64,000 nt of DNA from Thalassospira povalilytica (GTDB lineage Bacteria > Pseudomonadota > Alphaproteobacteria > Rhodospirillales > Thalassospiraceae): positions 372,001 to 436,000 of the forward strand of contig NZ_PGTS01000003.1 in the NCBI RefSeq assembly GCF_002844235.1, read 5' to 3'. Shown piece after piece: positions 12,226-52,978 of this stretch. Position numbers and translations under genes: made by a program. How positions within the stretch are numbered: the stretch's first letter is position 1; each line of letters starts with the position of its first letter. The notes beneath the pieces are model-generated. The model was not told where the DNA came from. It searched no databases and saw only the letters and a program-made list of their open reading frames with translations.

Positions 12226-12987
12226 TCATGCCTTGGCCGGGCGCAACACATGGGTATGGTCGGCGGCATAAAGCCGGGAATCGGTGAAATCCTTTCGTCC
12301 GAACACTTCACCGACCATGATAAGTGCCGTGCGGGTAATGCCGCTTCCTTTGACCTTGGCGCGGATGTCACCAAGGGTGCCAAAGATATATTGCTGATCG
12401 GGCCAGGTGGCGCGATAGGCAATCACCACCGGGCATTCTTCCCCGTAATGCGGGGTCAGATCGCGCACCACATTGGCCAGGTTGTTGATCGAAAGATGCA
12501 CGGCAAGGGTGGCCCGTGCTTTACCAAGTTCGGCAAGACTTTCGCCATCAGGCATCGCCGATGACCGCATGGCGGTACGGGTCAGGATCACGGTTTGCGA
12601 AATATCGGGCAGGGTCAGTTCCGCACCGATTTCAGCCGCGACCGCGGCATAGGCCGACACACCCGGGGTGATGTCATAGGGGATGCCAAGATCATCCAGA
12701 CGACGGATCTGTTCGGCAATTGCCCCGTAAATTGACGGGTCGCCGGAATGCACACGTGCCACGTCCTGGCCCTTGGCATGGGCTGTTTCAATTTCGGCGA
12801 TGATTTCATCAAGATGCATCGAGGCGGTATCAATCACACGTGCGCCTTCTGGTGCGCTTGTGACGATTTCTTCGGGTACCAGCGATCCGGCATAAAGACA
12901 GACCGGGCATTTTTCAATCAGACGCAAACCGCGTACGGTGATCAGGTCCGGGGCACCGGGGCCGGCGCCAATAAAATGAACAGTCAT
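12226..12987 (-). CDS. cobM: Precorrin-4 / cobalt-precorrin-4 C11-methyltransferase
   Basis: Transfers a methyl group from SAM to C11 of the corrin precursor. VHFIGAGPGAPDLITVRG is the SAM-binding N-terminus of the tetrapyrrole methylase family; YAGSLVPEEI, VARVHSGDPSIYGAI and DITPGVSAYAAVAAEIGAELTLP (in part) are CobM/CbiF signatures. The start ATG at 12987 overlaps the previous stop by one base (TAATG), which implies translational coupling, so the longer in-frame extension is rejected. Length is 253 residues. Because cbiX, cbiG and cbiD are nearby, the natural substrate may carry cobalt (CbiF role). Confidence 0.93.
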   Translation of the reverse strand: MTVHFIGAGPGAPDLITVRGLRLIEKCPVCLYAGSLVPEEIVTSAPEGARVIDTASMHLDEIIAEIETAHAKGQDVARVHSGDPSIYGAIAEQIRRLDDLGIPYDITPGVSAYAAVAAEIGAELTLPDISQTVILTRTAMRSSAMPDGESLAELGKARATLAVHLSINNLANVVRDLTPHYGEECPVVIAYRATWPDQQYIFGTLGDIRAKVKGSGITRTALIMVGEVFGRKDFTDSRLYAADHTHVLRPAKA

Positions 12988-14912
12988 TATTCTGCCTTGT
13001 CGTTTTTCGAGGTACTGAGAACCGGCGCCTTGGCCGCATCCGGGCCCTTTTTGGCATAGCCGCGCGGGGTATAAACCCATTCATTTTCACCGCGCGTGAT
13101 GTGGCGGCTGTTGCTTGATCCGACCAGAACCGTGGTCAGCATATCCACCATGTCGACTTCAAGTTTCGAAAGCGGAACGACTGTGATTTCCTCGTCCGGG
13201 CGGCCCAGCTGACGGCCAAGAACCACCGGGGTATCGGCTGGTCGGTGTTCAAGCAGGATATCACGGGCAACGGCCAGCAAGTCGCGGCGGCGTTTGGATA
13301 CCGGGTTATAGAAGGCAATGACAAAGTCACCCTCGCCTGCGGCCTTAAGACGGCGTAGGATATCTTCACGCGGGGTCAAAAGATCCGAGAGCGAAATCGC
13401 ACAGAAATCATGCCCCAGCGGCGCACCAATACGCGATGCCGCAGCCTGAAGGGCGGAAATGCCCGGGGAAACCTGAACCGCAACCCGGTTCCAGTCGGCG
13501 CGATCTTCGCGGTCCAGCAACTCGAACACCAGGGTGGCAAGCGCATAGATACCCGCATCCCCCGATCCGATCAGGGCAACATCCTTGCCGGTTGCAGCCA
13601 GTTCAAGGGCATGGCGCGCACGGGCCTCTTCAGCGCCAAGGTCGGAATGGTGGCAATCCTTGCCATCAATCAGCGATCCCAGCAGATCAAGATACATCTG
13701 ATAACCAACGATATCGGTCGCGCGCCCGATCAGGGCGGTGGCTTCCGGACTGCGCCAGCCGATCTGACCCGGGCCAATGCCGACAATCGACAATTTGCCC
13801 TGTGCCTTGCCAACCTGCTCGGGGATGATGTCATCCTGTGACAGGGCAATGGCACAGGTGGATTTCTTGGTTTTGTGCTTGGGCACGATCAGCTTGCCAT
13901 TCGGGCCGACGGTGGCAAGGGCCGCACCCTCGGCAACGCCGTGACAGCCGGTTTCGGCAAAGACAACATCAGAAGGCGTTACAAGACGATTTGCCTCGGC
14001 TTCAAGGGTTTGGGCATCAAAGAACCGGGCCGGAACGCCAAGACGGCGGGCCAGTTCATGCACAGCCGCTTCGTCGGCCTTAAGGTCAATCGAACTGACA
14101 CAGGCGATGGCCTTCGGGCTCAGGCACTGACCGGCCAGTGTTTCCATGACAAGGTCATAAAGATCGTCAACCGGGCAGCCGCGTTCACAACCAACCCCAA
14201 GGGCAAGAACCGGCGGGTGATAGGTGATTGCGGTTTCTGCGCCATCACTGATCGCATCGTCATCGGCGCCCTCGCGGGCGGTGGCAGTGATCAATACGCT
14301 GCCATCCTCAGATTGGGAAATGGCACTGTTGGTCAGCCAGGCGCTTGATCCTGCTTCGACCTCAATCCGTGCCGATGCGCCAGCCAAAAGGGCGGCGGTG
14401 GCCGGTTTGACAGTTTCGGGCGTACCCAGTTTCCAGCCCGCGGGCGGTTCATCAAGGGCAAGACCCAGCATCGCATCGCCCGGCGTGGTGATTGCAGCAT
14501 TGCCGCCAAGCCGTTCGGCCAGATCACGGGCAAGGCGGTTGCCGCCATGATGCCCGCCCAAAAGCGGGATGAAAGTATCACCGGCTTCGTCAACGGCAAT
14601 GACGGCCGCATCTTGCCACTTGCCTGCCAGAAGCGGCGCAAGGGCGCGGATCAGAATGCCGGCGGCACAGACGCCGATGATCACGTGATCAGATGAAAAA
14701 GTTTGTTGCAGATGTGCAATGGTATCGTCAAAGGCAATATCGACATCCTTGACCGATACGCGGGTGCGCAGGCCATGGACGCTGGCACCCTGAAGGTTGC
14801 TGGCGATTTTGCGCGCGGTCGGAAGGGCGCGCTGCGTCAGGCAAATCACCGCTATCGGGGCAATGGGGTTGGTCGGCAATGCCGGGCTGTTCGAGCTGTT
14901 ATGGGCGGTCAT
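12987..14912 (-). CDS. cobJ: CbiG-CobJ fusion: cobalt-precorrin-5A hydrolase domain plus precorrin-3B C17-methyltransferase
   Basis: About 641 residues. Residues ~1-370 contain a complete CbiG: an N-terminal CbiG_N part (GVCAAGILIRALAPLL, FIPLLGGHHGGN), a variable middle, and a CbiG_C/CobE part (LALGVGCERGCPVDDL, ETGCHGVAEGAAL). From ~372 a tetrapyrrole methylase domain begins with SIVGIGPGQIGWRSPEA and has VALIGSGDAGIYALA, VQVSPGISALQAAA and VIAFYNPVSKRRRDLL, all CobJ/CbiH. The methylase causes C17 methylation with ring contraction; CbiG opens the delta-lactone in the cobalt-containing route. The ATG at 14912 gives an ATGA overlap with cobI and is preferred over the ATG six bases upstream. 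Confidence 0.92.
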   Translation of the reverse strand: MTAHNSSNSPALPTNPIAPIAVICLTQRALPTARKIASNLQGASVHGLRTRVSVKDVDIAFDDTIAHLQQTFSSDHVIIGVCAAGILIRALAPLLAGKWQDAAVIAVDEAGDTFIPLLGGHHGGNRLARDLAERLGGNAAITTPGDAMLGLALDEPPAGWKLGTPETVKPATAALLAGASARIEVEAGSSAWLTNSAISQSEDGSVLITATAREGADDDAISDGAETAITYHPPVLALGVGCERGCPVDDLYDLVMETLAGQCLSPKAIACVSSIDLKADEAAVHELARRLGVPARFFDAQTLEAEANRLVTPSDVVFAETGCHGVAEGAALATVGPNGKLIVPKHKTKKSTCAIALSQDDIIPEQVGKAQGKLSIVGIGPGQIGWRSPEATALIGRATDIVGYQMYLDLLGSLIDGKDCHHSDLGAEEARARHALELAATGKDVALIGSGDAGIYALATLVFELLDREDRADWNRVAVQVSPGISALQAAASRIGAPLGHDFCAISLSDLLTPREDILRRLKAAGEGDFVIAFYNPVSKRRRDLLAVARDILLEHRPADTPVVLGRQLGRPDEEITVVPLSKLEVDMVDMLTTVLVGSSNSRHITRGENEWVYTPRGYAKKGPDAAKAPVLSTSKNDKAE

Positions 14913-15649
14913 CGCCATGCGTCTCCGCGACGGTGGATCAGGATCATGGAAAAATACGGTGCCTTGGCATCAGCCGGAAGATCGGCCAGCGGCACCATTT
15001 TCTGGGTTTCAAGGGTGGCGCGTTCGATGTAGCGCGCCCGGTCTGTCAGGCCAAGCTCGTTGATGACATCGCGCACCTTGGCGAAATGACGGCCAAGCTT
15101 GATGATCGCAGCCGCATCGGTATTGGCAAGCTGGGTGCGCAGGCGATCTGCATCCAGTGGACCGGGGATGACTTGCAAAACGTCGTTCTTGGCGGCAAGC
15201 GGCGCGCCAAGCTGGGCGGCACAGGCCATCATGGAACTGACACCGGGCACGGTTTTGACCGGATATCCGGCCTCGGCCAGGCGACCAAACAGATACATGA
15301 AGCTGCCATAAAAGAACGGATCGCCTTCGCACAGCACGGCTACGGTTTTGCCCGCTGCCAGATATTCGCCAATCTCGATGGCGGCGGTGTCATAGATCGG
15401 GTCGGCGGGTTTGCCCATTTCGATGCGGATGGCAATTTCAATCCGGCCTTCGGGAATGTGCGGATCGACGATCTGGCGGGCCAGACTGACACCGTCTTCC
15501 AGGGCCGGATAGGCAATCACATCGGCCTGTTGCAGGATGTTATAGGCCTTAAGCGTGATCAGATCGGGCTCCCCCGGTCCGATGCCAAGCCCATAGGCGG
15601 TTCCGGCAACCGGAAGGCCGTTTGATGCGGGAAGATCCGCACTGCTCAT
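14909..15649 (-). CDS. cobI: Precorrin-2 / cobalt-factor-II C20-methyltransferase
   Basis: A 246-residue tetrapyrrole methylase. GLGIGPGEPDLITLKAYN is the SAM-binding start, followed by VAVLCEGDPFFYGSFMYL and KTVPGVSSMMACAAQLGAP, specific for the C20 methylases CobI/CbiL. It adds the C20 methyl that is later lost at ring contraction. Both ends overlap neighbours by ATGA: it starts inside the cobL stop and ends inside the next start. The protein is thus made from the same message as CobL and CbiG-CobJ. Cobalt content of its substrate cannot be judged from sequence. Confidence 0.94.
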   Translation of the reverse strand: MSSADLPASNGLPVAGTAYGLGIGPGEPDLITLKAYNILQQADVIAYPALEDGVSLARQIVDPHIPEGRIEIAIRIEMGKPADPIYDTAAIEIGEYLAAGKTVAVLCEGDPFFYGSFMYLFGRLAEAGYPVKTVPGVSSMMACAAQLGAPLAAKNDVLQVIPGPLDADRLRTQLANTDAAAIIKLGRHFAKVRDVINELGLTDRARYIERATLETQKMVPLADLPADAKAPYFSMILIHRRGDAWR

Positions 15650-16899
15650 GCTTTTACTCCGAGGTAATGGGTGACGGGGGCAAGGTTGCTCCAGCCCCTG
15701 AAATTGCCGCGCGGAACCAATCGGGATACCGACAGGCGCGACAGCGTGCCACCGTTTTCATTATAAAATCGTAATAATTGTTCTTCGCCTTCCAGCGTCA
15801 CCGTGTTGGCCACCAGCCGCCCATGTGCAGGAAGCAGTTTCCAGCAGGCTTCAAGCAACCCGTTACTGGTGATCCCGCCGCCAATAAAAATGGCATCAGG
15901 CCTTGGCAAGCGGTCAGCAAAGGCGATTGCATCTTCAATCGTGCTTTGTTCAATGACCAGTCCCGGTACGCCCAGACGAAGCGCATTCTTTTTGATCATT
16001 GCACAACGTTCGGTGTCACGTTCAATCGCCACCGCCTTGCCCTGCAATCGCATCCATTCAATGGAAATCGAACCGCATCCGGCCCCCAGATCCCACAAAA
16101 CACCCCCGGCAAACGGCGCAAGGGAAGAAAGCGTTTGTGCACGGATTTCCGATTTGGTGATCATGCCATCATGAATGAATGCATCATCGGGCAAACCCGG
16201 TCCCATGGGTAACGGATTGGCTTTGGGGCCGGCTTCAAGATCAATCATGATCAGATTAAGCGGATCGACCGATTTGACATCAGGCATCGAAGTGGCGGTT
16301 GATTGCCAGGTACGTGCCGTCTGGGTGGTAATCCGTTCTTCGGGGCCGCCAAGGCGTTCGCAAACCGACATGCGGCTTTGATCAAAACCGGCTTCGCACA
16401 GCATGACCGCGACCAGTGCCGGGGTTGATCCGTCGGCACTTAGTGCAATCAGTTTGCCATGCGGGCGCAAATGGGCGCGCAGGGTTTCGGGTTCCCGTCC
16501 GTGCAGGGTAATCACATCGCATTCCGCCAATGGCCAGCCAAGCCGCGATGCGGCCAGTGAAATGCTTGATGGGGACGGGATCGCATATATCGGTTCGGGT
16601 CCGAAATATTTAATCAGCGTATTGCCAACCCCGAAATACATCGGATCGCCACTGGCCAGAACCACAGGGTTCTGATCAAGGCAATCTTCGATCAGCGGCA
16701 GGTTGGCTTCAAATGGTGTGATCCATTTGTTTTGGGTTGCGGTGTTGGACCCGGGCAACATGGCAATATGGCGCGTACCGCCAAAAATGATGTTGGCATT
16801 TTCAATGATTTTGCGCGCTATCGGTGACAGGCCGTCATAGCCGTCTTCACCAATGCCGATTACCGTGATGCGCCCTTTAAGCGGGGATTGTTCATTCAT
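15646..16899 (-). CDS. cobL: Precorrin-6Y C5,15-methyltransferase (decarboxylating), CbiE-CbiT fusion
   Basis: A 417-residue two-domain enzyme. The N-terminal ~200 residues are the CbiE methylase (ITVIGIGEDGYDGL, VVLASGDPMYFGVGNTL, PSPSSISLAASRLGW). The C-terminal ~210 residues are the CbiT methylase/decarboxylase with SAM motif LWDLGAGCGSISIEWM and PDAIFIGGG. It methylates C5 and C15 and removes the ring-C acetate carboxylate. It overlaps cobH upstream and cobI downstream by ATGA. The fused form is usual in aerobic-route organisms but occurs in both pathway types. Confidence 0.95.
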   Translation of the reverse strand: MNEQSPLKGRITVIGIGEDGYDGLSPIARKIIENANIIFGGTRHIAMLPGSNTATQNKWITPFEANLPLIEDCLDQNPVVLASGDPMYFGVGNTLIKYFGPEPIYAIPSPSSISLAASRLGWPLAECDVITLHGREPETLRAHLRPHGKLIALSADGSTPALVAVMLCEAGFDQSRMSVCERLGGPEERITTQTARTWQSTATSMPDVKSVDPLNLIMIDLEAGPKANPLPMGPGLPDDAFIHDGMITKSEIRAQTLSSLAPFAGGVLWDLGAGCGSISIEWMRLQGKAVAIERDTERCAMIKKNALRLGVPGLVIEQSTIEDAIAFADRLPRPDAIFIGGGITSNGLLEACWKLLPAHGRLVANTVTLEGEEQLLRFYNENGGTLSRLSVSRLVPRGNFRGWSNLAPVTHYLGVKA

Positions 16900-17579
16900 G
16901 ACAGGCCCGCCTTCTTGCGATCAAGGGTGCCATCGGGTGTCGTTTCGTCATCGCGCGCCAGACGCGCCAGTGCATTGACGGTGGCGGCGGTCACCGCACT
17001 GCCGCCAAACCGGCCGCGCAAGGTGACAAAGGGAATATCCCCGGCATGTTCGATCAGGGCATCCTTGCTTTCAGCCGCCCCGACAAATCCGACCGGCATG
17101 CCGATGAGTGCGGCGGGCTTGGGCAGTCGGCCATTATGAATGGCTTCGAGCAGATGGAAAAGGGCGGTGGGCGCATTGCCGATCGCGATTATTGCGCCTT
17201 CGATATGATCTGTCCATGCCTCGACCGCGGCGGCAGAACGGGTGGTGCCAAGCTGGGCTGCAAGGCCGTGGGTATCACCATCATTCAAGGTGCACAAAAC
17301 CGGGTTTTCCGCGGGCAAAAGGCGGGAAATGATGCCATGGCGGACCATTTCCGCATCACAAAGGACGGGTTTGCCTGTTCTTAATGCCTGTGTGGCGGCT
17401 CCACACAGATCACCAGCAAAGGTAATCTGACCCGCCATTTCGACCATGCCACAGGCATGGATGATACGGATGGCAACAGGACGCTCGGTCTCTGAAAAGC
17501 GCGCAAGGTCTGCCTCGGCCTCGATCGTGGCAAAGCTTTTGGCATAGATTTCCTGCGGATCACGCAGATAGTCAAACAT
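16896..17579 (-). CDS. cobH: Precorrin-8X methylmutase
   Basis: A 227-residue CobH/CbiC enzyme that moves the C11 methyl to C12, giving hydrogenobyrinic or cobyrinic acid. RDPQEIYAKSFATIEAEA at the N-terminus, RIIHACGMVEMAGQI with the catalytic His, LCDAEMVRHGI and the C-terminal GMPVGFVGAAESKDAL are family signatures. AAGG lies about 10 bp upstream of the ATG. It starts 33 bp after cbiX and ends in an ATGA overlap with cobL. No unusual features. Confidence 0.95.
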   Translation of the reverse strand: MFDYLRDPQEIYAKSFATIEAEADLARFSETERPVAIRIIHACGMVEMAGQITFAGDLCGAATQALRTGKPVLCDAEMVRHGIISRLLPAENPVLCTLNDGDTHGLAAQLGTTRSAAAVEAWTDHIEGAIIAIGNAPTALFHLLEAIHNGRLPKPAALIGMPVGFVGAAESKDALIEHAGDIPFVTLRGRFGGSAVTAATVNALARLARDDETTPDGTLDRKKAGLS

Positions 17580-17612: not shown

Positions 17613-18668
17613 TCAGGAACCGGTCGATTTGTTCGCATCACCATGATCATGGGAATGGCTGTGCCCATGGTCGTGATTATGGCTGTGATCGTGTGCGTGG
17701 TCATGACCGTGATCGTGGCTATGGCCGTGGTGGTGCCCGTGACCATGATGGTGATGATGGCCGTGGCTATGACCATGGCTGTGCCCGTCGGTGCCGATCC
17801 CCATCACATGGTGGTGGTGGCCGACTTGCGGGGTGCCAACATCACCTTCAAATCCGATGATCTGTTCGCGGTACTTGCACAGCTGACAGTTCATGTTGTT
17901 GTCGCCGGTGTCAATTTCGGCAAGACGCTCGGCAAAGCTTTCAAGAACCATCGGGTGATCTTTAAGGTAACCGGCCTTGATGAATTCGACATCGCCGAAC
18001 TCGGCTGCGACTTCGTCAGTATGGGTATAGATACGGTCGATCAGGATACCTGCAAACAGGAAATAGGGGAAAACCACAACGCGTTTGTAGCCCAGTTTCA
18101 TGGCTTCGCGCAGACCCGAATTGACGCGCGGATGGGCAACACCGGAATAGCTGATTTCGGTACGGCCAAATCCCATGCCTTCCTGAAGCATGCGGGCAAC
18201 TTTATAAACGTTTGAATTGGCATCCGGGTCATTGGTGCCCCGCCCGACGACCATCAGAAGGGTTTCCTTGCGCGATACGCTGTCATCCGCATCGGCAAGG
18301 GCTTCTTCGATACGGTCTTTGGCCGCGAGCAGGAGTTTGGGATCAATCGCCAGATCACGACCGAATTTGACATCGATATCGGGATTGTCGTGGGCGAAAT
18401 TGTTTACCTCGCTCGGCAGGTCATTTTTGACGTGGCCGGCGGCAAACAGCATACCCGGAAGGGCATAGATCTTTTTGTGGCCCATGGCTTTGAGCTTTTC
18501 AAAGCCATCACGCAGGATCGGGTGCGCAAATTCGAGAAAGCCGCTTTCGACATCGTAGTCGGCCAGATGGGTCTGTTTCATCGTTTCAACCATGGCGTTG
18601 AACTGTGAAACTGCGCGTTCATCACGCGAACCGTGACCGCAAATCATTACTGCGCCTTTGGGGGACAT
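17613..18668 (-). CDS. cbiX: CbiX-type sirohydrochlorin cobaltochelatase with a long His-rich tail
   Basis: From the ATG at 18668 (AAAGGAG upstream) the 351-residue protein starts MSPKGAVMICGHGSRDERA, with His in CGHGSRD as expected for the metal-binding site. A second CbiX half has VVGRGTNDPDANSN, GVAHPRVNSG and VVVFPYFLFAGILIDRI. Around residue 260 comes MNCQLCKYREQ, a CxxC segment seen in the long CbiX form that can hold an Fe-S centre. The last ~65 residues contain about 30 histidines alternating with G, S and D, a probable cobalt store. It inserts cobalt early, into sirohydrochlorin. It is the first gene of the cbiX-cobM operon. Confidence 0.92.
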   Translation of the reverse strand: MSPKGAVMICGHGSRDERAVSQFNAMVETMKQTHLADYDVESGFLEFAHPILRDGFEKLKAMGHKKIYALPGMLFAAGHVKNDLPSEVNNFAHDNPDIDVKFGRDLAIDPKLLLAAKDRIEEALADADDSVSRKETLLMVVGRGTNDPDANSNVYKVARMLQEGMGFGRTEISYSGVAHPRVNSGLREAMKLGYKRVVVFPYFLFAGILIDRIYTHTDEVAAEFGDVEFIKAGYLKDHPMVLESFAERLAEIDTGDNNMNCQLCKYREQIIGFEGDVGTPQVGHHHHVMGIGTDGHSHGHSHGHHHHHGHGHHHGHSHDHGHDHAHDHSHNHDHGHSHSHDHGDANKSTGS

Positions 18669-19055
18669 AAAAGGCTGCTCCTTTGTCTCTCTTTTGGTGT
18701 TCTTCGCGATGACTTTTGCCATCGCGGTACCCGATGCCACCCCCGTTTTCACCGATTGGCCTGCGGAATGCAAGCGGCAGGTAACAGAAGAAATATCGAA
18801 GGCGGGATCAGAGGCGAAAATACTACTTATGGTGGGCGGGCGGGTCGTTGATATCGAATATCTTGTGGGGCGGTGCGATCTTACGGGGGATGCATGCTGT
18901 TGTGACGATCAATCGTATGATAAAAATAAAAATCGTATGAATTTCTTCTATCAAATCGGGTCAGGCTTGGCAAATGATGGTGTCGCAACAGGGCCTTGTC
19001 CCGTGCCCGTGTCATTGGCATTGACGGTTTGCCGCGCAGATCGCACATTGCGCCG
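18669..19055. promoter_or_regulatory. Divergent cbiX/cbiB region with two direct repeats
   Basis: This 387-bp region holds no convincing gene. AATCGTATGA occurs at 18911-18920 and again at 18931-18940, exactly 20 bp apart, in an AT-rich stretch. Two full helical turns place both copies on one DNA face, as for a regulator bound in tandem. A piece reading ACCTGCC on the minus strand resembles part of a B12 box, but the other riboswitch blocks are missing. Confidence 0.45.
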
Positions 19056-20072
19056 ATGGAACCCGATCTTGCAGATTTTCTTATTCCGGCTTCCGGCTTT
19101 TCCGGACCGCTTTTCACAATACTGGTGCTGGCGCTGGTGTTGGACGCGATCTTTGGCGATTTCCCATGGTTGTTTTCGCGTATTTCCCATCCGGTGGTCT
19201 GGATTGGCAATCTGATTTCGTGGTTCGAAAAGCGCCTTAATCGCAAGGGGCTTGGCAATGCGGACTTGATCCTGCGCGGCGTGGTCACCAGTCTGGCGGT
19301 CATTTTCGTGGCCGGCATGGCCGGTGGTGTAATCCAGATTCTGTCGGACTTTGGCGGTGTCTTCTGGCTGTTCGAGATCTTTCTGGTGGCGGTCCTGGTC
19401 GCGCAAAAGGGCCTTTATCAACATGTCAAAGCGGTCTCGACAGCCCTTAAAACCGATGGACTTGCCGGCGGACGCAAGGCGGTTTCGATGATTGTTGGCC
19501 GTGACCCGGACAAGCTTGATGAAGCCGGTGTCAGCCGGGCTGCAATTGAAAGCTGTGCTGAAAATTTCTCGGACGGGGTGGTCGCGCCGCTTTTCTGGTA
19601 TGCGGTCGCCGGACCGGTTGGTATTTGCGCCTATAAGGCGATCAATACCCTTGATTCGATGATTGGTCACCGCAACGAACGGTATTTGTATTTTGGTCGG
19701 TTTGCGGCCCGGCTTGATGATGTTGCCAATTTTGTCCCGGCCCGGATTGCCGGGGGCGTGATTTGTCTGGCCGCCGTGCTTGGTGCCAAGACCAGCGGTA
19801 AAGCTGCCTGGCAGACGCTTTGGCGTGATGCACGCAAACATAAATCCCCCAATGCCGGATGGCAGGAAGCAGCCTTTGCCGGCGCCCTTGATCTGGCTCT
19901 TGCCGGGCCACGTCAATATGGTGATGAAATCGTTGATGATCCCTATATCGGGTCTGGTCGGCGCGATGCCGGGGCAGCTGATATTGACCGGGCATTGTCG
20001 CTTTATATTGGGGCCTGTCTGATCAATGCGGCTTGGCCGGTTCTGATCAAGGCACTTTGGATCGGGTTATGA
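19056..20072 (+). CDS. cbiB: Adenosylcobinamide-phosphate synthase (CbiB/CobD)
   Basis: Membrane enzyme attaching the aminopropanol (phosphate) arm to adenosylcobyric acid. LVLALVLDAIFGDFPWLFSR is a family N-terminus in the first membrane helix. SMIVGRDPDKLDEAGVSRA, ESCAENFSDGVVAPLFWY and NTLDSMIGHRNERYLYFG are conserved CbiB blocks. The ATG at 19056 is chosen over a TTG 60 bp upstream because the family begins near the first hydrophobic helix; neither has a clear ribosome-binding site. Length is 338 residues. It is divergent from cbiX and overlaps the next gene by ATGA. Confidence 0.92.
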   Translation: MEPDLADFLIPASGFSGPLFTILVLALVLDAIFGDFPWLFSRISHPVVWIGNLISWFEKRLNRKGLGNADLILRGVVTSLAVIFVAGMAGGVIQILSDFGGVFWLFEIFLVAVLVAQKGLYQHVKAVSTALKTDGLAGGRKAVSMIVGRDPDKLDEAGVSRAAIESCAENFSDGVVAPLFWYAVAGPVGICAYKAINTLDSMIGHRNERYLYFGRFAARLDDVANFVPARIAGGVICLAAVLGAKTSGKAAWQTLWRDARKHKSPNAGWQEAAFAGALDLALAGPRQYGDEIVDDPYIGSGRRDAGAADIDRALSLYIGACLINAAWPVLIKALWIGL

Positions 20073-24483: not shown

Positions 24484-25518
24484 TTAAGCCTGTTCCTTGC
24501 CGTCAATGCCGGCTTTTTCAAATGTTGCCATGCCGTTATGGCATTCAGCAGCCGAGCGCAGCAGCGGGATCGCCAATGCTGCACCCGACCCCTCGCCAAG
24601 GCGCATGCCAAAATCGATCAATGCCTTTTTGCCAAGCTTTTCAAGCAGGCGAATATGGCCCGGCTCTGCTGAAACATGGCCGACAAGACAGTGATCAAGT
24701 GCATCAGGCCGCATGGAGGCCAGAACCGCCGCCGCCGCACAGGAAACATATCCGTCAAGCAATACCGGCACCCGTGAATAGCGCGCAGCAATAATCGCCC
24801 CGGCCATGGCGGCAATTTCGCGCCCACCAACACAGCGCAAGACATCAAGCCCGTCATGCATCTGGTTTTTATGCAAGATGATGGCATCGCCAACCACCCG
24901 GGTCTTGAGTGTCAGGGTGGCGTCATCAATGCCGGTTCCCCGCCCGGTCCAGTCCCCGGCGTTGCCGCCATAAAGTGCATGGGCAATTGCCGCTGCGGCG
25001 GTGGTGTTGCCGATGCCCATTTCGCCCGGCACAAAAAGATCAAGGCCCTTTTCAATCGCGCTCATGCCAAAGGCCATGGCTTCTGCACAGCCCTCATCAT
25101 CCATCGCCGGTTCCTGACTGAAATCGTTGGTCGGGATTTCAAGTGCAACTTCCATCACGCGGAGTTCTGCATCGACCGATTTGCAAATCTGGTTGATGGC
25201 AGCCCCGCCATTGATGAAGTTTTCCACCATTTGCTGGTTTACGCTTGGCGGAAATGCAGACACGCCCTGTGCCACAACGCCATGACTGCCAGCAAAGACA
25301 GTGACACGCGGCCGAGACATCCGCGGGCGTGATGTTCCCTGCCAGCCCGCCAGCCAAAGGCTGAAATCTTCGAGACGGCCAAGTGACCCGGCCGGTTTGG
25401 TCAGGGTCGGCTCACGGTTGGCAACAGCAGCTTGTGCCTCTGCGTCAACGGCCGGCAAATCGGCCAGAAGACTGCGAATTTCATCAAGGCTTTGGGGCGG
25501 GTGCTTGGGATTGAACAT
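24484..25518 (-). CDS. cobT: Nicotinate-nucleotide-dimethylbenzimidazole phosphoribosyltransferase
   Basis: Activates the lower-ligand base as alpha-ribazole phosphate. From ATG 25518 (GGAG 7 bp upstream) the 344-residue protein has TKPAGSLGRLEDFSLWLAG, FAGSHGVVAQGVSAFPPSVN, FVPGEMGIGNTTAAAAI and LVGHVSAEPGHIRLL, all family signatures, with catalytic Glu expected in the C-terminal region. It is named CobU in Pseudomonas denitrificans. It lies divergently from cobS-cobC, so the ligand-assembly genes share one regulatory region. Confidence 0.95.
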   Translation of the reverse strand: MFNPKHPPQSLDEIRSLLADLPAVDAEAQAAVANREPTLTKPAGSLGRLEDFSLWLAGWQGTSRPRMSRPRVTVFAGSHGVVAQGVSAFPPSVNQQMVENFINGGAAINQICKSVDAELRVMEVALEIPTNDFSQEPAMDDEGCAEAMAFGMSAIEKGLDLFVPGEMGIGNTTAAAAIAHALYGGNAGDWTGRGTGIDDATLTLKTRVVGDAIILHKNQMHDGLDVLRCVGGREIAAMAGAIIAARYSRVPVLLDGYVSCAAAAVLASMRPDALDHCLVGHVSAEPGHIRLLEKLGKKALIDFGMRLGEGSGAALAIPLLRSAAECHNGMATFEKAGIDGKEQA

Positions 25519-25750
25519 TGTGGTCTCCGGCTGGCGGCAAATCGTCAAAAAGCGTGTTCCGCTTGGCTTCTGGAATGGTAAGGATTAGGGTCAGAAACCA
25601 ATCAATTGGTGTGTTTCAGTATCGGCCAACGGTCTGCCGGTCCCGGATCCGGGATGGCTTCGGTTTCGCGGTGGACTGAAGAACCCCAATAAAATCGGCC
25701 CCAAACTAGGCCTATGCGCAACAGATTGCCAGTTCGAAAATCGGAATTTC
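25519..25750. promoter_or_regulatory. Divergent cobT/cobS region with palindromes
   Basis: Within this 232-bp promoter region ACCAATCAATTGGT (25597-25610) and TCCCGGATCCGGGA (25641-25654) are palindromic. Either could bind a regulator of lower-ligand genes. No cobalamin riboswitch is recognisable here. Confidence 0.35.
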
Positions 25751-26602
25751 ATGGTGTCCGAAGATCATAACCAAAACGAAACAAACATGCAAAGCACAGA
25801 TACACCGACAGGTGATCGGCATGATGATGCGGATAAAACGTCTGTTGATGCATCGGTTTTATCCGATTTCTGGCGTGCCATGGCATTGCTCAGCCGGGTG
25901 CCGTTGCCCCCGGTTGGTGATTTCCGTGCGGCTCTGATCGCGCGATCTGTCTGGTGCTGGCCACTTGTCGGACTGGTTCTGGCGGGCCTGGCATTGCTGC
26001 CGGCGATGCTTGTCGATTTTCTGACGGGAAACCCCCTTGTCTATGCGATCTTTGCCATCGCAGCGATGGTATTGCTTAGCGGCGCGATGCACGAAGACGG
26101 CGTTGCCGACTGTGCAGACGGCTTTGGCGGCGGGATGGACCGCGACCGCAAACTTGAAATCATGCGCGACAGTACTGTCGGGACCTATGCGGTTGTCATG
26201 CTGATTTTGACGCTGGGTTTACGGCTGGTTCTGATTACGGCTGCGGCGGATATCGGACAGGCCGGTATCCTGTTTCTGATCATGGCGGTTATTTCCCGTG
26301 CGGCAATGCCGATTGTCATGCGCATATTGCCGCCGGCGCGGGATAACGGACTGGGCAAAGGGGCCGGGCGGCCCGGATGGCTTCCGGTTCTGATCGGGTT
26401 TGCCATTGCCAGCGCTATTGTTCTGGTATTGGGCGGTATCGGTGCGATGTTTGCGGTAATTGTCGGTGTGATGATCGCGATCCTGATTGTTGCAATGGTC
26501 GCCAGATCACAGATCGGCGGGCAGACCGGTGATGTGTTGGGCGCAACCCAAATTTGTGCCGAACTGTTTGCCGGTATCGGCTTCATTGCCGTAATGGCAT
26601 AG
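25751..26602 (+). CDS. cobS: Adenosylcobinamide-GDP ribazoletransferase (cobalamin synthase)
   Basis: Membrane enzyme joining adenosylcobinamide-GDP with alpha-ribazole (phosphate) to finish the coenzyme. The conserved block HEDGVADCADGFGGGMDRDR with its Asp-rich metal site is diagnostic, followed by KLEIMRDSTVGTYAV. Several membrane helices follow, ending QTGDVLGATQICAELFAG. The N-terminus has about 35 extra hydrophilic residues before LSDFWRAMALLSRVPLP; the ATG at 25787 is an alternative start. Called CobV in Pseudomonas denitrificans. cobC follows on the same strand. Confidence 0.93.
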   Translation: MVSEDHNQNETNMQSTDTPTGDRHDDADKTSVDASVLSDFWRAMALLSRVPLPPVGDFRAALIARSVWCWPLVGLVLAGLALLPAMLVDFLTGNPLVYAIFAIAAMVLLSGAMHEDGVADCADGFGGGMDRDRKLEIMRDSTVGTYAVVMLILTLGLRLVLITAAADIGQAGILFLIMAVISRAAMPIVMRILPPARDNGLGKGAGRPGWLPVLIGFAIASAIVLVLGGIGAMFAVIVGVMIAILIVAMVARSQIGGQTGDVLGATQICAELFAGIGFIAVMA

Positions 26603-26671
26603 CCATGAATTTTGCTGATTGATCAAAACGACCATGATTGACTGCCAATGTCCGAACAAACCGGGGAAAGC

Positions 26672-27286
26672 ATGACCAAAATCAAGACAACGCGCTGGTG
26701 GCTGGTGCGTCACGCGCCGGTGCAAAACCCGGAACGTCTGGTCTATGGCCGAAGCGACATGCAGGTTGATCTGTCTGATGAAAAAAAACTGCGTGCGGTG
26801 GCGCGGCACTTGCCCCGCGATGCGGTCTGGATGACCAGCCATCTGTCACGGACGCTTGATACCGCGCTCAAGCTTCAGGAACTGATCGACGAAGACATCA
26901 CCCCGACCCGCGAAAGCGGCTTTGCCGAGCAACATTTCGGGGCCTGGGAGCTTCAGCACTGGAACGACCTTCCGAAAGGCGAAACCACACAATTCTGGAC
27001 CGATTTCGCCCGACAGCAGCCGCCAAATGGTGAAAGCTTTGCCGATATGGTCGAGCGGGTCGGTCCGGTTTTCACCCACGCCACCAGCTATTGGGCGGGC
27101 CGCGACATTGTTGCAGTGGTCCATGGCGGTACCATCCGCGCGATCATGGCCAATGCGCTGGGACTGTCACTTGAAGCGGCTTTGTCATTTCATATCGATA
27201 CGCTAAGTCTGACCAGACTGGAATATATCGACGGAGTGGATCAACCTGGCTGGCGTGTCACCGCGGTCAATCAAAGCTTCGGATGA
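26672..27286 (+). CDS. cobC: Histidine-phosphatase family protein, probable alpha-ribazole phosphatase
   Basis: WWLVRHAPVQNP carries the RH(G/A) phosphohistidine motif at the N-terminus, and VVHGGTIRAIMANAL carries the second active-site His. Between them, SHLSRTLDTALKL and FAEQHFGAWE match the phosphoglycerate-mutase-like CobC group. The ATG at 26672 is preferred because GGGGAAAG precedes it; an ATG at 26648 is in frame. Placement 69 bp after cobS supports dephosphorylation of alpha-ribazole phosphate or of cobalamin phosphate. Length is 204 residues. Confidence 0.82.
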   Translation: MTKIKTTRWWLVRHAPVQNPERLVYGRSDMQVDLSDEKKLRAVARHLPRDAVWMTSHLSRTLDTALKLQELIDEDITPTRESGFAEQHFGAWELQHWNDLPKGETTQFWTDFARQQPPNGESFADMVERVGPVFTHATSYWAGRDIVAVVHGGTIRAIMANALGLSLEAALSFHIDTLSLTRLEYIDGVDQPGWRVTAVNQSFG

Positions 27287-28485: not shown

Positions 28486-28549
28486 TCATCATCTTAAATG
28501 ATGGCGACGCAATCGGGCCTCGGTGGGAGGCCATGGCGAGGAATAGAAT

Positions 28550-29077: not shown

Positions 29078-29111
29078 CAATTTAAATGATTGAATTTCAA
29101 GGAATTTGAAA

Positions 29112-43146: not shown

Positions 43147-43153
43147 CCAAGTG

Positions 43154-46782: not shown

Positions 46783-47565
46783 TTATTTATCGAGAAACTT
46801 TTGGACGCTCTCGAGTATAATTTCGCGACTTGTTGCTTGCGTTACCGGTTCGGCACCCGGTCGTTCAATCATGATGACCGGTAAACCGAGATTGCGGGCA
46901 GCCTCGATCTTGGCAAAGGTTGCGTCGCCGCCGCTGTTTTTGCAAACGATCACATCGATATCGTGACGTTCAAGAAGTTCGGTTTCGCTTTCAATACTGA
47001 ACGGGCCACGGGCAAACAGCCATTCCCCATAGGCCAGATCAAACGGATCGCGCGGTGCATCAACGGTGCGCACCAGAAGCCACGTTTTTTCAAGTCCTTC
47101 GAACGCATGCAGGTTCTTGGCCCCACAGGCAATCAGCGCGCGTGTCCCGTGTTGGGGAAGAATACGTGCCGCTTCCTCGATCGAGCGGACCTCGATCCAG
47201 TTGTCGCGATCGGTTTTTTTCCAACCCGGCCGGTAATATTGAATGCAGGGCATGGCAACCGCCTGACAGGCTTGGGCGACATTGCTGGAAATTTCGATGG
47301 CATAGGGGTGGGTTGCATCGATCACCAGATCGATCTGTTCACTTCTGATATAGGAAATGATGCCTTCGGGCCCGCCAAACCCGCCAATCCGTACCGGTAC
47401 ACCGTCCGGAAGGCTTGGCGCGCTGGTGCGTCCGGCCAGCGAAAGCTGCAACCGGATGTCACGCCCGAATTCATGCATCAGGTCTTCGGCAATGCGGTTG
47501 GCGTCCCCGGTGCCCCCAAAAATAAGGATATGTTTCGGGCGTTTGGCAGGGCGGGAAAGCGACAT
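46783..47565 (-). CDS. cobK: Precorrin-6A / cobalt-precorrin-6A reductase
   Basis: Reduces the C18-C19 bond of precorrin-6A with NADPH. HILIFGGTGDANRIAEDL is the nucleotide-binding start, followed by GGFGGPEGIISYIR, LVIDATHPYAIEISSNV and VCKNSGGDATFAKIEAAR, all CobK/CbiJ signatures. ATG 47565 is used; the codon six bases upstream is TTG. Length is 260 residues. It lies 42 bp after cbiD on the same strand. A long open frame on the opposite strand over cobK and cbiD is a composition artefact. Confidence 0.95.
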   Translation of the reverse strand: MSLSRPAKRPKHILIFGGTGDANRIAEDLMHEFGRDIRLQLSLAGRTSAPSLPDGVPVRIGGFGGPEGIISYIRSEQIDLVIDATHPYAIEISSNVAQACQAVAMPCIQYYRPGWKKTDRDNWIEVRSIEEAARILPQHGTRALIACGAKNLHAFEGLEKTWLLVRTVDAPRDPFDLAYGEWLFARGPFSIESETELLERHDIDVIVCKNSGGDATFAKIEAARNLGLPVIMIERPGAEPVTQATSREIILESVQKFLDK

Positions 47566-47607
47566 GGGCAAGTACCTTATTCTCTTTTGATCGGTCCACG
47601 GGATGGA

Positions 47608-48729
47608 TCAGTTGGTTATTTTGGGCCTGAACTGGTCAAAGTCACCAATCCCGTGACGGGCAATAATCATCCCGTCGCGATCGGTAACGACAATTTCGAC
47701 CGCACCGGCGCCATCAAGGGTGGCGCGCGCGGACTCACAGGCCAGACGCGCAATGGTCCTGGCAATATTAACGTTTGCCGCCTGACAAAGTTCCAGCACC
47801 TGTTTGGCCGTATTGGCGGTTTTCACCTGTTCCTGAAGGTCACCGTCCCCCCCGGCAAGCCCGACCGTCTCTGCAAGCTTGGCAAAGTCGACCTGGGACC
47901 GGCTGCTATGAAGGTCAAGATGGCCTTGCGCCAGTTTGACAAGCTTGGCAAAACCGCCGGCGATGCTGATGAACGCGACCGGGTTCTTGCGCAGATATTT
48001 CAACATCCCGCCGACAAAGTCGCCCATATCAAGAATGGCTTCTTCGGGAAGATCGTAAAATGTGCGAATGGCGGCCTCCGATGTTTTGCCGGTCGCCCCG
48101 GCGACATGGATGCGCCCGGTGGCACGGGCCACATCGATCCCGCGATGAATGGAATGAATCCACGCCGAACAACTGAACGGGATCACGATCCCCGTGGTGC
48201 CAAGAACCGACAAACCACCGACAATGCCCAACCGGCCATTCCAGGTTTTGGTTGCAATTTCCTTGCCCCCCGGGATCGATATTTCGATTTCCACATCACC
48301 GGTTGCCCCGAACATTTCACACAGTTCGGTGATCTGGCCGATCATCATTTCGCGCGGTTTGGGGTTGATTGCAGCTTCGCCGGGCGGCAATGGCAAGCCC
48401 GGTTTGGTAACGGTGCCAACCCCGTCCCCGGCGTGAAATGTAATGCCGCTTCCTGGTGTGCCATGGCGGACGGTTGCAATGATTTCTGCGCCATGGGTCA
48501 CGTCCGGATCGTCCCCGGCATCCTTGATCACGCTGGCCCGCGCCCAGCCCGTTCCGCGTTCGGCCTTGACCAGTGCAAAGGACGGCGTTTCACCGCGCGG
48601 CAGGGTAATGGTCACCGGATCGGGAAAATCCCCGGACAGCAAAGCCTGCCACGCAGCACGGGTCGCAGCGGTGGCACAGGCCCCCGTTGTCCATCCCTTG
48701 CGCAGCGGTCCGTCCGGTTTTCTGGCCAT
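47608..48729 (-). CDS. cbiD: Cobalt-precorrin-5B C1-methyltransferase
   Basis: LRKGWTTGACATAATRAA at the N-terminus is the diagnostic CbiD motif, followed by GAGDGVGTVTKPGL-like HAGDGVGTVTKPGLPL, GRLGIVGGLSVLGTTGIV and VAFISIAGGFAKLVKLAQG. ATG 48729 (AGGA upstream) gives 373 residues, normal for the family. CbiD methylates C1 in the oxygen-independent route, replacing CobF, which I do not find here. It is therefore a key marker for the pathway type. First gene of a cbiD-cobK unit, divergent from cobA. Confidence 0.95.
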   Translation of the reverse strand: MARKPDGPLRKGWTTGACATAATRAAWQALLSGDFPDPVTITLPRGETPSFALVKAERGTGWARASVIKDAGDDPDVTHGAEIIATVRHGTPGSGITFHAGDGVGTVTKPGLPLPPGEAAINPKPREMMIGQITELCEMFGATGDVEIEISIPGGKEIATKTWNGRLGIVGGLSVLGTTGIVIPFSCSAWIHSIHRGIDVARATGRIHVAGATGKTSEAAIRTFYDLPEEAILDMGDFVGGMLKYLRKNPVAFISIAGGFAKLVKLAQGHLDLHSSRSQVDFAKLAETVGLAGGDGDLQEQVKTANTAKQVLELCQAANVNIARTIARLACESARATLDGAGAVEIVVTDRDGMIIARHGIGDFDQFRPKITN

Positions 48730-48809
48730 ACGTTGATTTTTCCTGTCAATCTCACTACTGATCCCGGTATGGATCGGTGCGGGCAATGCCGCAACGGGAT
48801 ATTCAATTA

Positions 48810-48954: not shown

Positions 48955-49824
48955 ATGACGGCTCTTGGTCTTGATTTTCCGGTATTTGAACCGGGTTGGG
49001 TATGGCTGGTTGGTGCGGGTCCGGGGGATCCGGGCTTGCTGACGCTTCATGCGGTTAACGCCATGCAACAGGCCGATGTCGTTGTGTATGATGCCCTGGT
49101 TGATGAACGGATTCTCAATCTTTTGCGGGCTGATGCCAAACGCATCTATGCCGGCAAGCGCGGCGGTCGTCCGTCCTCAAAACAGACCGATATCTCATTG
49201 CAACTGGTCGAACTGGCCAAACAGGGTTTGCGTGTTCTGCGTCTTAAGGGCGGCGATCCGTTCGTGTTTGGCCGTGGCGGCGAAGAAGGCATGACCCTTG
49301 TGGATCACAATGTGCCTTTCCGTGTGGTGCCTGGCATTACTGCCGGGATCGCCGGGGCGGCTTATGCCGGTATTCCGACCACCCATCGCGACTGCAATTC
49401 GTCGGTCACCTTTGTCACCGGTCACGGATCAAGCGGCGATGTGCCGGACAATATCAATTGGGCGGCGCTGGCCAAGGGCGCACCGGTGCTGGTGATGTAT
49501 ATGGCGATGAAACATCTGCGCCGGATTTCAGCCGAACTGATGACCAATGGCCGGTCGGGGGATGAACCGTTGGCCGTAATCAATCAGGCAACCACACCCG
49601 ATCAGGGCATTTTGATCACCACCCTTGAAAAGGCCGCCGATGATGTCGAGCGTGCCGGGGTTGAGCCGCCGGCAGTCTGTATTCTTGGCAAGGTGGTCGG
49701 GTTGCGTGATCGTCTGAACTGGCTATCGCCCCAGGATGATGTCAAATCGGTGCGCAATGTCCCGTTTGAACAGGTGCTCGAACTGATCTCGACCCCGTCC
49801 GATCCGCTTAAGGATCAGGGGTAA
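48955..49824 (+). CDS. cobA: Uroporphyrinogen-III C-methyltransferase
   Basis: Methylates uroporphyrinogen III at C2 and C7 to precorrin-2, the branch point to cobalamin and sirohaem. VWLVGAGPGDPGLLTLHAVN, VVYDALVDERIL, RLKGGDPFVFGRGGEEGMTL, VVPGITAGIAGAAYAGIP and THRDCNSSVTFVTGH are all SUMT signatures. Length of 289 residues matches the stand-alone enzyme, with no CysG-type dehydrogenase domain. Precorrin-2 oxidation to sirohydrochlorin, needed if CbiX is used, must come from another gene. Divergent from cbiD. Confidence 0.96.
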   Translation: MTALGLDFPVFEPGWVWLVGAGPGDPGLLTLHAVNAMQQADVVVYDALVDERILNLLRADAKRIYAGKRGGRPSSKQTDISLQLVELAKQGLRVLRLKGGDPFVFGRGGEEGMTLVDHNVPFRVVPGITAGIAGAAYAGIPTTHRDCNSSVTFVTGHGSSGDVPDNINWAALAKGAPVLVMYMAMKHLRRISAELMTNGRSGDEPLAVINQATTPDQGILITTLEKAADDVERAGVEPPAVCILGKVVGLRDRLNWLSPQDDVKSVRNVPFEQVLELISTPSDPLKDQG

Positions 49825-51600: not shown

Positions 51601-51619
51601 CGTGCCGGAGAACCACCAA

Positions 51620-52978
51620 ATGCAAGACCCCGTTCCGGGCATCCTGATTGCCGCCCCGTCGTCAAATAGCGGCAAAACGGTTGTAACGCTGGCGATATTG
51701 CGCGCGCTGACCCGCCGGGGACAATCTGTTGCGGCGGCAAAAACCGGTCCGGACTATATCGATCCGGCTTTTCAGGCCGCGGCTTGTGGCGATCGCTGTA
51801 TCAATCTTGACCCCTGGGCGATGACCCCCGATCAGATCGCATCCCTTGCCGCCGGGCATGCGGCAGGGAAATCATTTCTGATGTGCGAAGGGGTCATGGG
51901 CCTGTTTGACGGGGCGGCCAACGGCGATGGATCAACCGCCGATCTTGCAGCCCAGACCGGCTGGCCGGTGGTGCTGGTGGTTGATGTAAAGGGGCAGTCG
52001 GCCTCTGCGGCGGCGCTGATTTCGGGCTTTGCCAATTTCCGCAAGGATATCACTGTTGCCGCCGTGATCCTTAATCGCGTCGGCAGTCCGCGCCACGCCA
52101 AAATGATCAGGGACGCCTGCGCCAAATATCTGCCGGATCTTCCGATCATCGGTGCGGTGCGCAGATCCGATGATCTGAGCTTGCCCGAACGCCATCTCGG
52201 ACTGGTTCAGGCCGGTGAACATCCCGAGCTTGACGCATTCCTTGACCGTGCTGCTGACATTATCGCAGAAGACATCGATCTTGATGCCCTTGTTGCATTG
52301 GCGGCAGGGAAACAGGATGGTGGTGAACATGGCGAGACTACGGCCCAGACCCCAACGCTGACCCCGCCACTGACCCCACCGCTGATCGCGCCGCTCGGCC
52401 AAAAAATTGCCGTCGCCCGTGACGCGGCATTTGCCTTTTGCTATGCGCATATTCTGGATGGATGGCGTGCAGCGGGGGCGGAAATCAGCTTTTTCTCCCC
52501 GCTTGCCAACGAGGCCCCGGACCCCGCATGTGATGCGATTTATCTGCCCGGCGGTTATCCGGAATTGCATGCAGCAACCCTTGCTGCGGCTGATCGGTTC
52601 AAATCCTCACTGCGCGATGCCGCGGCCCGTGATGTTGTGATCTATGGCGAATGCGGTGGCTATATGACGCTTGGCACCGAACTGATTGATGCCGGTGGCA
52701 CACATCATGAAATGCTGGGTCTTTTGCCACTGGCAACCAGCTTTGCCTCCCGACGTCTGCATCTTGGATATCGCGAAGCCAAGATCGGCATTCCGACCCC
52801 GTTCGGCCCGGCCGGAATGACGGTGCGCGGTCATGAATTTCACTATGCCACGACATTGTCGGAAGACGGGATTCCGTTTTGCCGTATGACCAATGCGCTG
52901 GGGACTGATCTTGGTCCGGCCGGTCTTGTTTCCGGGCGGGTATTCGGATCGTTCTTTCATTTGATCGCCAAGAGTTGA
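51620..52978 (+). CDS. cobB: Cobyrinate / hydrogenobyrinate a,c-diamide synthase
   Basis: ATP- and glutamine-dependent amidation of side chains a and c. LIAAPSSNSGKTVVTLAIL is the ATP loop, KTGPDYIDPAFQAAACG the CobB/CbiA block, and CEGVMGLFDGAANGDGST the next. The C-terminal amidotransferase has VIYGECGGYMTLG with the nucleophile Cys and HEFHYATTL with the His. Between halves is a Thr/Pro-rich linker near residues 240-260. ATG 51620 with GGAG upstream is preferred to a GTG 18 bp earlier. Length is 452 residues. Its product is the substrate of both CobN (metal-free form) and CobO (cobalt form). Confidence 0.95.
   Translation: MQDPVPGILIAAPSSNSGKTVVTLAILRALTRRGQSVAAAKTGPDYIDPAFQAAACGDRCINLDPWAMTPDQIASLAAGHAAGKSFLMCEGVMGLFDGAANGDGSTADLAAQTGWPVVLVVDVKGQSASAAALISGFANFRKDITVAAVILNRVGSPRHAKMIRDACAKYLPDLPIIGAVRRSDDLSLPERHLGLVQAGEHPELDAFLDRAADIIAEDIDLDALVALAAGKQDGGEHGETTAQTPTLTPPLTPPLIAPLGQKIAVARDAAFAFCYAHILDGWRAAGAEISFFSPLANEAPDPACDAIYLPGGYPELHAATLAAADRFKSSLRDAAARDVVIYGECGGYMTLGTELIDAGGTHHEMLGLLPLATSFASRRLHLGYREAKIGIPTPFGPAGMTVRGHEFHYATTLSEDGIPFCRMTNALGTDLGPAGLVSGRVFGSFFHLIAKS

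Follow-up and report, generated by a model that had tools for sequence, protein, structure and literature searches.

The window analysed here, a stretch of 64,000 nucleotides from the genome of the alphaproteobacterium Thalassospira povalilytica (G000:C3:372001-436000; genome of 4.44 Mb, stated completeness 100%), carries genes of cobalamin (vitamin B12) synthesis that include the two known kinds of cobalt chelatase, CbiX and CobN. These genes may be viewed as two separable modules, one for early-cobalt, CbiX-dependent ring building and the other, CobNST, for a separate and perhaps salvage-related cobalt insertion, a reading held here with about as much confidence as doubt. It draws on gene content, on the partition of genomes into CbiX and CobG types, on the replacement of one by the other at a single operon position, on a gene set of mixed ancestry within one genus and on the placement of a riboswitch. 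CbiX appears to swap with CobG and not with CobN. The co-presence of both chelatases is common, not peculiar to this genome, and has already been published (excerpt of Shelton et al. 2019). The CbiX/CobG alternation and the cassette swap presented below were not found described in the open-access literature, most subscription papers lying beyond the scope of the search.

The two modules would work as follows. The first (cbiX-cobH-cobL-cobI-cbiG/cobJ-cobM plus cobK-cbiD) would build the corrin ring without CobG and would occupy the place of cobG-cobH-cobI-cobJ in other Alphaproteobacteria. CbiX would put cobalt into sirohydrochlorin at the start of ring building, and the CbiG-CobJ fusion and its partners would contract the cobalt-bound ring via oxygen-independent chemistry. 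The second (a riboswitch followed by cobP-cobW-cobN, then cobO-cobQ, with cobST elsewhere) would ensure late cobalt insertion and finishing under B12 control, the riboswitch probably acting by repression; it is common to CbiX-type and CobG-type genomes and is found also in a few genomes without the tested ring-building markers. If CbiX inserts cobalt early, CobNST needs another substrate; its substrates in CbiX-type genomes may therefore be metal-free corrinoids from a source other than a CobG route in the same cell, perhaps imported ones, which would give CobN a role in salvage. The simplest account is that cobalt enters early and that the ring contracts independently of oxygen, since CbiX has chelatase residues, resembles the long cobalt-chelatase type and occurs in alternation with CobG, an oxygenase.

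Gene content of the window and of its genome

Genes were called by scanning Pfam and NCBIfam hidden Markov models (HMMs) against their cut-offs, and RNAs by scanning Rfam at the gathering threshold. All the B12 genes that an earlier note on this DNA had placed together in this region (cbiX, cbiG, cbiD, cobN and cobW) were recovered by the HMM scans. The putative ring-building genes lie on the minus strand, where cbiX (17613..18773; long two-domain form, PF01903, 164 bits in two stretches) is followed by cobH/cbiC, encoding the precorrin-8X methylmutase (16896..17579; NF006136, 295 bits, cut-off 276), cobL, a fusion of cbiE and cbiT (15646..16899; TIGR02467 and TIGR02469 above cut-off), cobI/cbiL, encoding the C20-methyltransferase (14909..15649; TIGR01467, 206 bits, cut-off 163), cbiG fused to cobJ/cbiH (12987..14918; PF11760, PF01890 and PF00590 above cut-off; TIGR01466, 289 bits, cut-off 246) and cobM/cbiF, encoding the precorrin-4 C11-methyltransferase (12226..13080; TIGR01465, 317 bits, cut-off 260). 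CbiG is complete, both CbiG_N and CbiG_C scoring above the Pfam cut-off. The C1-methyltransferase gene cbiD (47608..48786; TIGR00312, 419 bits, cut-off 200) and the reductase gene cobK/cbiJ (46783..47571; PF02571, 232 bits; NF005968, 279 bits, cut-off 231) stand apart on the same strand.

The putative second module is on the plus strand. A cobalamin riboswitch (28317..28494; RF00174, 79 bits, gathering score 31.5) precedes cobP/cobU, encoding a kinase-guanylyltransferase (28550..29077; NF004469, 201 bits, cut-off 161), cobW, encoding a cobalt-supply GTPase (29106..30152; TIGR02475, 531 bits, cut-off 332), and cobN, encoding the long form of the large subunit of the late cobaltochelatase (30197..34024; TIGR02257, 1640 bits, cut-off 822; CobN structure 9uk9 of PDB, 1598 bits). 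The corrinoid adenosyltransferase gene cobO (35980..36663; TIGR00708, 233 bits, cut-off 168) and the cobyric acid synthase gene cobQ (36721..38265; TIGR00313, 448 bits, cut-off 310) lie further downstream. CobS (583 bits) and CobT (841 bits), for which the earlier note had called for a search, are encoded on another contig. The CobNST set is therefore complete in G000, its three members all scoring above curated cut-offs, and the two chelatases do coexist.

The absence of cobG, cobZ and cobF from the window extends to the whole genome, in which CobG, CobF and TIGR02485 (CobZ N-terminal domain or TcuA) gave no match over cut-off. The CobG search, which went to E 1e-3, gave two sub-cut-off matches, a nitrite/sulfite-reductase-like protein and NirB. 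Hence, the signs of the aerobic pathway (CobG or CobZ; CobF) are not found in G000 at cut-off, and the gene set of the anaerobic pathway (CbiX or CbiK, CbiG and CbiD) is present. The proposal that both routes run under different oxygen tensions is not supported here, as no known precorrin-3B synthase was found in G000.

The CbiX protein

The CbiX of the window carries the motifs GHGSR, GHVKND and MNCQLC and a His-rich tail. Pfam CbiX matches it with 164 bits, and the NCBIfam models only below their cut-offs. Its two CbiX domains, two motif His, CxxC and His-rich tail are the features of the long form. The two motif His and both Cys of CxxC are kept in 120-121 of 121 aligned CbiX sequences (the one from the window included, and some rows being near-identical or two from one genome). 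Identity to Thalassospira records reaches 98%, and the ratio of non-synonymous to synonymous substitution rates (dN/dS) of the CbiX core is 0.04 for a single pair, the window and G007, a genome of the same genus. CbiX thus keeps chelatase residues and resembles the long cobalt-chelatase type, which suggests that it inserts cobalt into sirohydrochlorin.

That CbiX acts mainly like the Paracoccus siroheme ferrochelatase was considered and is unlikely. The motif His is in the N-terminal half of the window protein and in the C-terminal region of the Paracoccus enzyme. In addition, G000 encodes a CysG-N protein (194 bits, cut-off 62) in the vicinity of nirB and of a gene for nitrate reductase, so siroheme need not depend on cbiX. 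A search of PDB (E up to 10) matched CbiX to SirB 6jv6 (93 bits) and gave no match named as the Paracoccus enzyme, whose presence in that copy of PDB is unconfirmed.

CbiX and CobG types among Alphaproteobacteria

The distribution of these genes was surveyed in 241 alphaproteobacterial genomes with a completeness of at least 90%, a strong long CbiX being defined by E < 1e-70 to the window protein and the limit for listing CobG being E 1e-55; these class searches scored some of the candidates from a first look. CobN was found in 88 genomes and a strong CbiX in 60, with both in 59. The 88 CobN genomes divide into 59 with a strong CbiX, 26 with CobG beside cobH or cobN, three with neither (G090, G138 and G249) and none with both. 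The CobG model matches 30 genomes, 27 of which encode CobN and had the surroundings of the match inspected; the three others (G263, G292 and G295) lack CobN and stand outside this inspection. In G113 and G116, the listed match lies away from cob genes and a second CobG homologue is found beside cobH or cobN, and the weak CobG of G072 and G152, below the listing threshold, was recovered through its neighbourhood. A CobG as weak as these could be hidden in other CbiX or marker-less genomes, whereas G000 was searched down to E 1e-3. Weaker or fragmentary CbiX sequences occur in nine more genomes (G065, G066, G131, G140, G197, G232, G251, G262 and G289), three of which are CobG genomes (G065 and G289, 35% identity; G197, a short match to the His-rich tail).

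Three candidates for the joint presence of CbiX and CobG (G103, G147 and G226) were rejected. Their CobG-model matches are open reading frames (ORFs) of 587-729 amino acids that contain paired NIR/SIR domains, and the fetched stretch shows no mapped cob gene, so they are read as NIR/SIR reductases; flavoprotein-type neighbours accompany the match in G103 and G147, the two that were scanned. Over-cut-off matches of the NCBIfam CobG model at L240, L241 and L242 resemble such reductases, a source of false aerobic-pathway calls.

CbiD (72 genomes) and CobF (13 genomes) are mutually exclusive among the 88 CobN genomes, their ratio being 55 to 4 in CbiX+CobN genomes and 17 to 9 in CobG genomes. CbiG_N occurs with CobJ in six CobG genomes (G088, G278, G197, G287, G047 and G039) and is fused to it in the single CobG genome scanned with Pfam. 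As CbiG and CbiD both occur alongside CobG, they are not early-cobalt markers, the sense in which they had been used at the outset. The suggestion that CbiG and CbiD accept metal-free substrates gains co-occurrence in its favour (CbiD in 17 of 26 CobG genomes, CbiG_N with CobG in six) and stands to that extent only.

TIGR02485 exceeds its cut-off in 19 of the 241 genomes, nine of them among the 60 CbiX genomes, with at most six candidates scored per genome; CobZ is therefore no general answer in CbiX genomes. CobZ was also considered, and rejected, in other members of the genus Thalassospira, part of which carry an over-cut-off TIGR02485 match: a separate TcuB gene adjoins it at L132 and L133, the two loci whose neighbour was scanned, so these are read as tricarballylate genes. 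CbiD was found in 28 of 29 Thalassospira genomes. The exception, G020 (L129 and L131), has no CbiD match, a cbiX operon without cobH, and homologues of CobF, CobH and CobK together on another contig; it is apparently a metagenome-assembled genome, with contamination as a possible source of CobF. The 1.4-Mb genome G169 (L290) carries CbiX, CobH, CobL, CobI, CbiG, CobJ, CobM, CobK and CbiD and has no CobN match.

CbiX and CobG also share an operon position. Going downstream from CobG, cobH is the first mapped gene to follow in 25 of 26 loci; the exception, in G116, reaches a contig end, and its CobG stands beside cobN. CbiX has cobH as its next mapped gene in 79 of 80 public loci (cobL at L026) and in 23 of 24 G-handle loci (cobB at L272). 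Trees of concatenated CobH, CobI and CobJ were built for 68 hand-chosen loci and for 35 of these; a single branch splits the CbiX type from the CobG type with a support of 100 (68 rows) and 100/100 (35 rows, more careful method). Six family codes contain both types (f44, f49, f59, f64, f75 and f108), and the split holds although f44, f64, f75 and f108 have rows on both sides of the 68-row tree. As the types are phylogenetically clustered, Fisher values on their co-occurrence overstate independence. In single-gene trees, the type label changes once for CobI and CobJ, twice for CobH and CobB, three times for CobM and CobL, four times for CobK and five times for CbiD and CobA (row sets vary, with 26 rows for CobB, and starred branches force fewer changes in several of these trees). 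The CobN tree (54 of 55 rows, L248 being too short) requires six type changes for CbiX-type rows, and its long-CobN part mixes CbiX, CobG and marker-less genomes.

A cassette swap within one genus

Two genomes with the same genus code are of different types, G207 carrying CbiX and CobF, and G287 CobG and CbiD. Ten proteins are 77-87% identical between them (CobW 87%, CobM 82%, CobN 81%, CobL and CobK 77%, as well as CobO, CobQ, CobP, CbiB and CobA), versus 58% for CobH, 55% for CobI and 54% for CobJ. The CobH, CobI and CobJ of G287 are closer to those of the CobG-type genome G088 (78, 71 and 62%), and a CobH-I-J tree constrained to hold G207 and G287 together is rejected by the approximately unbiased test (p-AU 9e-71; the pair was picked after the first tree). 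Between cobL and cobM, G287 has a stand-alone CbiG_C ORF of 132 codons that is 79% identical to the corresponding domain of the G207 fusion; at this place, G207 has a stretch made of cobI and cbiG-cobJ. CbiX is likely ancestral in this family because G103, of the same family, is a CbiX genome. We infer that G287 lost CbiX, CobH, CobI, CbiG_N and CobJ and gained a CobG-CobH-CobI-CobJ set. Closely related CobM, CobL, CobK and CobN proteins thus occur in both types, and it is CobG, not CobN, that changes places with CbiX.

The CobN module and its riboswitch

The riboswitch upstream of cobP-cobW-cobN is the only Rfam match in the window at the gathering threshold, as expected from the claim that it controls the CobN operon alone. 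Ten loci of other CbiX genomes were scanned (L302, L305, L310, L276, L278, L315, L022, L301, L304 and L316): a cobalamin riboswitch is present at eight, where it always precedes cobP or cobW, and none of the seven that hold cbiX (the first seven) has one before this gene. The riboswitch also precedes cobP-cobW-cobN in the CobG-type loci L311, L312 and L314.

Among the three CobN genomes with neither CbiX nor CobG, the riboswitch of G138 heads genes for a TonB receptor and an ABC ATPase followed by cobP, cobW and cobN. In G090, one riboswitch heads cobW-cobN-cobO and another a TonB receptor gene, with a periplasmic-binding-protein gene between them; in G249, it heads cobW-cobN-cobO. In these three genomes, CbiX, CbiD and CobF yielded no match at the thresholds applied, nor did CobG at 1e-55; CobI, CobH, CobJ and CobM lay outside the search. 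The uptake-linked CobN loci of G138 and G090 may point to salvage, as suggested for haloarchaea in the excerpt of a review (PMC8305020). The earlier idea that CobN has another role is therefore favoured, both by CobN in 59 of 60 CbiX genomes and by CobW-CobN beside TonB-receptor, ABC or binding-protein genes in two marker-less genomes. G169 would fit a salvage role if its assembly is sound.

Weighing of the explanations

Several observations weigh against the two-module reading. CobM, CobL, CobK and CbiD move between the CbiX and CobG settings, and CobF, an aerobic-route enzyme, replaces CbiD in four of 59 CbiX+CobN genomes; both patterns would be compatible as well with a route that is metal-free after CbiX. 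An optional salvage role would predict CobN in fewer than 59 of the 60 CbiX genomes. Informative neighbourhoods (uptake-type genes) exist for only two CobN genomes without ring markers, and one of these, G138, matches TIGR02485 at 299 bits, below the cut-off. At L278 and L316, no riboswitch reaches the threshold, although the sequence covered ahead of cobP spans 2.4 and 1.4 kb, respectively. Among the nine CbiX genomes with TIGR02485, CobZ was ruled out by a TcuB neighbour in G007 alone. Lastly, G169 is only 97% complete, so its missing CobN may be an assembly gap.

The same observations give some weight to late insertion, in which CbiX would enable CobG-independent ring contraction through a transient metal or another activity, the ring would be metal-free and CobNST would supply the cobalt of B12. 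The near-constant retention of CobN, the replacement of CobG rather than CobN by CbiX in both position and presence, the closeness of CobM, CobL, CobK and CobN across the type change in one genus, and CobF instead of CbiD in four of 59 CbiX+CobN genomes and in the Thalassospira genome G020 all speak for it. It is nevertheless improbable, since CbiX retains chelatase residues. Neither a cobalt-free, oxygen-free ring contraction nor an enzymatic removal of cobalt from a corrin is known to occur. The CbiG reaction, moreover, is cobalt-dependent according to the review excerpt (PMC8305020). By the same token, it is doubtful that a third B12 route exists in which the CbiX cassette would replace the CobG step only, the ring being metal-free or metal-indifferent and the final cobalt being inserted by CobNST.

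Somewhat less likely again is an unrecognised precorrin-3B synthase that would replace CobG in an oxygen-dependent, metal-free pathway, with CbiX acting either as a siroheme ferrochelatase or as a store of cobalt. CobZ shows that CobG can be replaced by a non-homologous protein (excerpt of PMC7242693), the Paracoccus CbiX is a siroheme ferrochelatase, a role extended by its authors to Alphaproteobacteria (excerpt of PMC4063343), and TIGR02485 exceeds its cut-off in nine of 60 CbiX genomes. However, no such match was found in G000 or, with at most six candidates scored per genome, in the 51 other CbiX genomes; the motif His placement, the lack of a PDB match named as the Paracoccus enzyme and the CysG-N protein near nirB also argue against this role of CbiX, which itself alternates with CobG at one operon place. 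Furthermore, no conserved unknown oxygenase was found near the cob genes of 48 CbiX-type loci, where the two commonest extra families, Ysc84 and an aminotransferase, occur in nine and eight loci and are absent from the window. That CobN is a redundant leftover is very improbable. Early insertion alone should suffice and G169 has CbiX and ring genes without a CobN match, but CobN is present in all the other CbiX genomes and adjoins cobW in the window. In addition, its dN/dS of 0.08 (window vs G007, one species pair) indicates purifying selection. Across 18 rows, the CobN of CobG genomes has 150 invariant columns, at which 28 CbiX-type rows keep 96% of the residues.

Comparison with known systems

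The anaerobic pathway of Bacillus megaterium and Salmonella resembles the present system by CbiX, CbiG and CbiD and by the absence of CobG. The CbiXL of B. megaterium has a His-rich tail. Going by the title of a reference, it also has an MxCxxC motif like that of the window CbiX. Unlike this pathway, the genome of the window encodes CobL, a CbiG-CobJ fusion, CobW, CobN, CobS and CobT. The CobW-CobN operon and the presence of CobS and CobT recall instead the aerobic pathway of Pseudomonas denitrificans and Rhodobacter capsulatus, and the CobI and CobH of the window score best on precorrin rather than cobalt-precorrin models. Unlike the aerobic pathway, G000 has no CobG, CobZ-type or CobF match over cut-off and has CbiX upstream of cobH in the place of CobG.

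Haloarchaea are another case of the late chelatase CobN in early-cobalt organisms, for which salvage is suggested (excerpt of PMC8305020); their CobN comes with a ChlID-like subunit, whereas CobS, CobT, CobW and a riboswitch are found here. The Paracoccus enzyme is also a class II chelatase named CbiX in Alphaproteobacteria, but its motif His is placed differently and the window CbiX is encoded within a ring-building operon. HmuS, a class I chelatase homologue (389 bits to the window CobN), removes iron from heme (excerpt of PMC12583661), whereas the window CobN matches a CobN structure at 1598 bits. Excerpts of other papers report that CobW raises B12 production under limiting cobalt in Escherichia coli carrying cobNST (PMC7895991) and that CbiD was proposed as a possible stand-in for CobF in Methylobacterium (PMC3621897). 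In a Thalassospira grown in algal co-culture, B12 genes are broadly expressed and few are regulated, these few including cbiX, cbiM and cobQ; cbiX is up under B12 limitation and cobN is unmentioned in the excerpt (PMC13431280).

Other genes of the window

The remaining B12 genes of the window are cbiB/cobD, divergent from cbiX (18996..20072, plus strand; TIGR00380, 233 bits, cut-off 166), the 5,6-dimethylbenzimidazole phosphoribosyltransferase gene (CobT in Salmonella naming; 24484..25548, minus strand; TIGR03160, 398 bits, cut-off 319), the adenosylcobinamide-GDP ribazoletransferase gene (CobS in Salmonella naming; 25751..26602, plus strand; TIGR00317, 116 bits, cut-off 110), a cobC-like alpha-ribazole phosphatase gene (26648..27286, plus strand; TIGR03162, 120 bits, below the cut-off of 163; PF00300, 119 bits, above cut-off), the uroporphyrinogen-III methyltransferase gene cobA (48955..49824, plus strand; TIGR01469, 297 bits, cut-off 185) and the a,c-diamide synthase gene cobB/cbiA (51602..52978, plus strand; NF002204, 507 bits, cut-off 254).

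The region 12226-52978 also includes genes without evident B12 link (hldE, gmhA, EAL-like, FzlA, PstS-like, TPR, SDR-type and chemotaxis genes). A 234-amino-acid ORF without Pfam or NCBIfam match lies between cobC and the riboswitch (27391-28095, minus strand) and was found by tblastn in Thalassospira loci. Between cobN and cobO (34208-35983, plus strand) lie a GH114 gene and an ORF of 233 amino acids that matches no family; both are found in G007 (L318), with 55% identity for GH114. A DsbD_2-type membrane protein gene and an SCO1/SenC gene lie between cobA and cobB (49923-51510, plus strand), and SCO1 adjoins cobB in L032-L034 and L138 too.

Significance

CbiG, CbiD and CobN are commonly taken as signs of the anaerobic or aerobic pathway, and these readings conflict here. 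Asking simply whether a strong CbiX or a CobG precedes cobH is enough to assign 85 of the 88 sampled CobN genomes to a type. The genus of G207 and G287 offers a natural swap experiment that makes the reason for keeping two cobalt chelatases testable. It does the same for the question of whether the corrin ring is built without oxygen chemistry in marine Alphaproteobacteria, from which algae are said to obtain B12.

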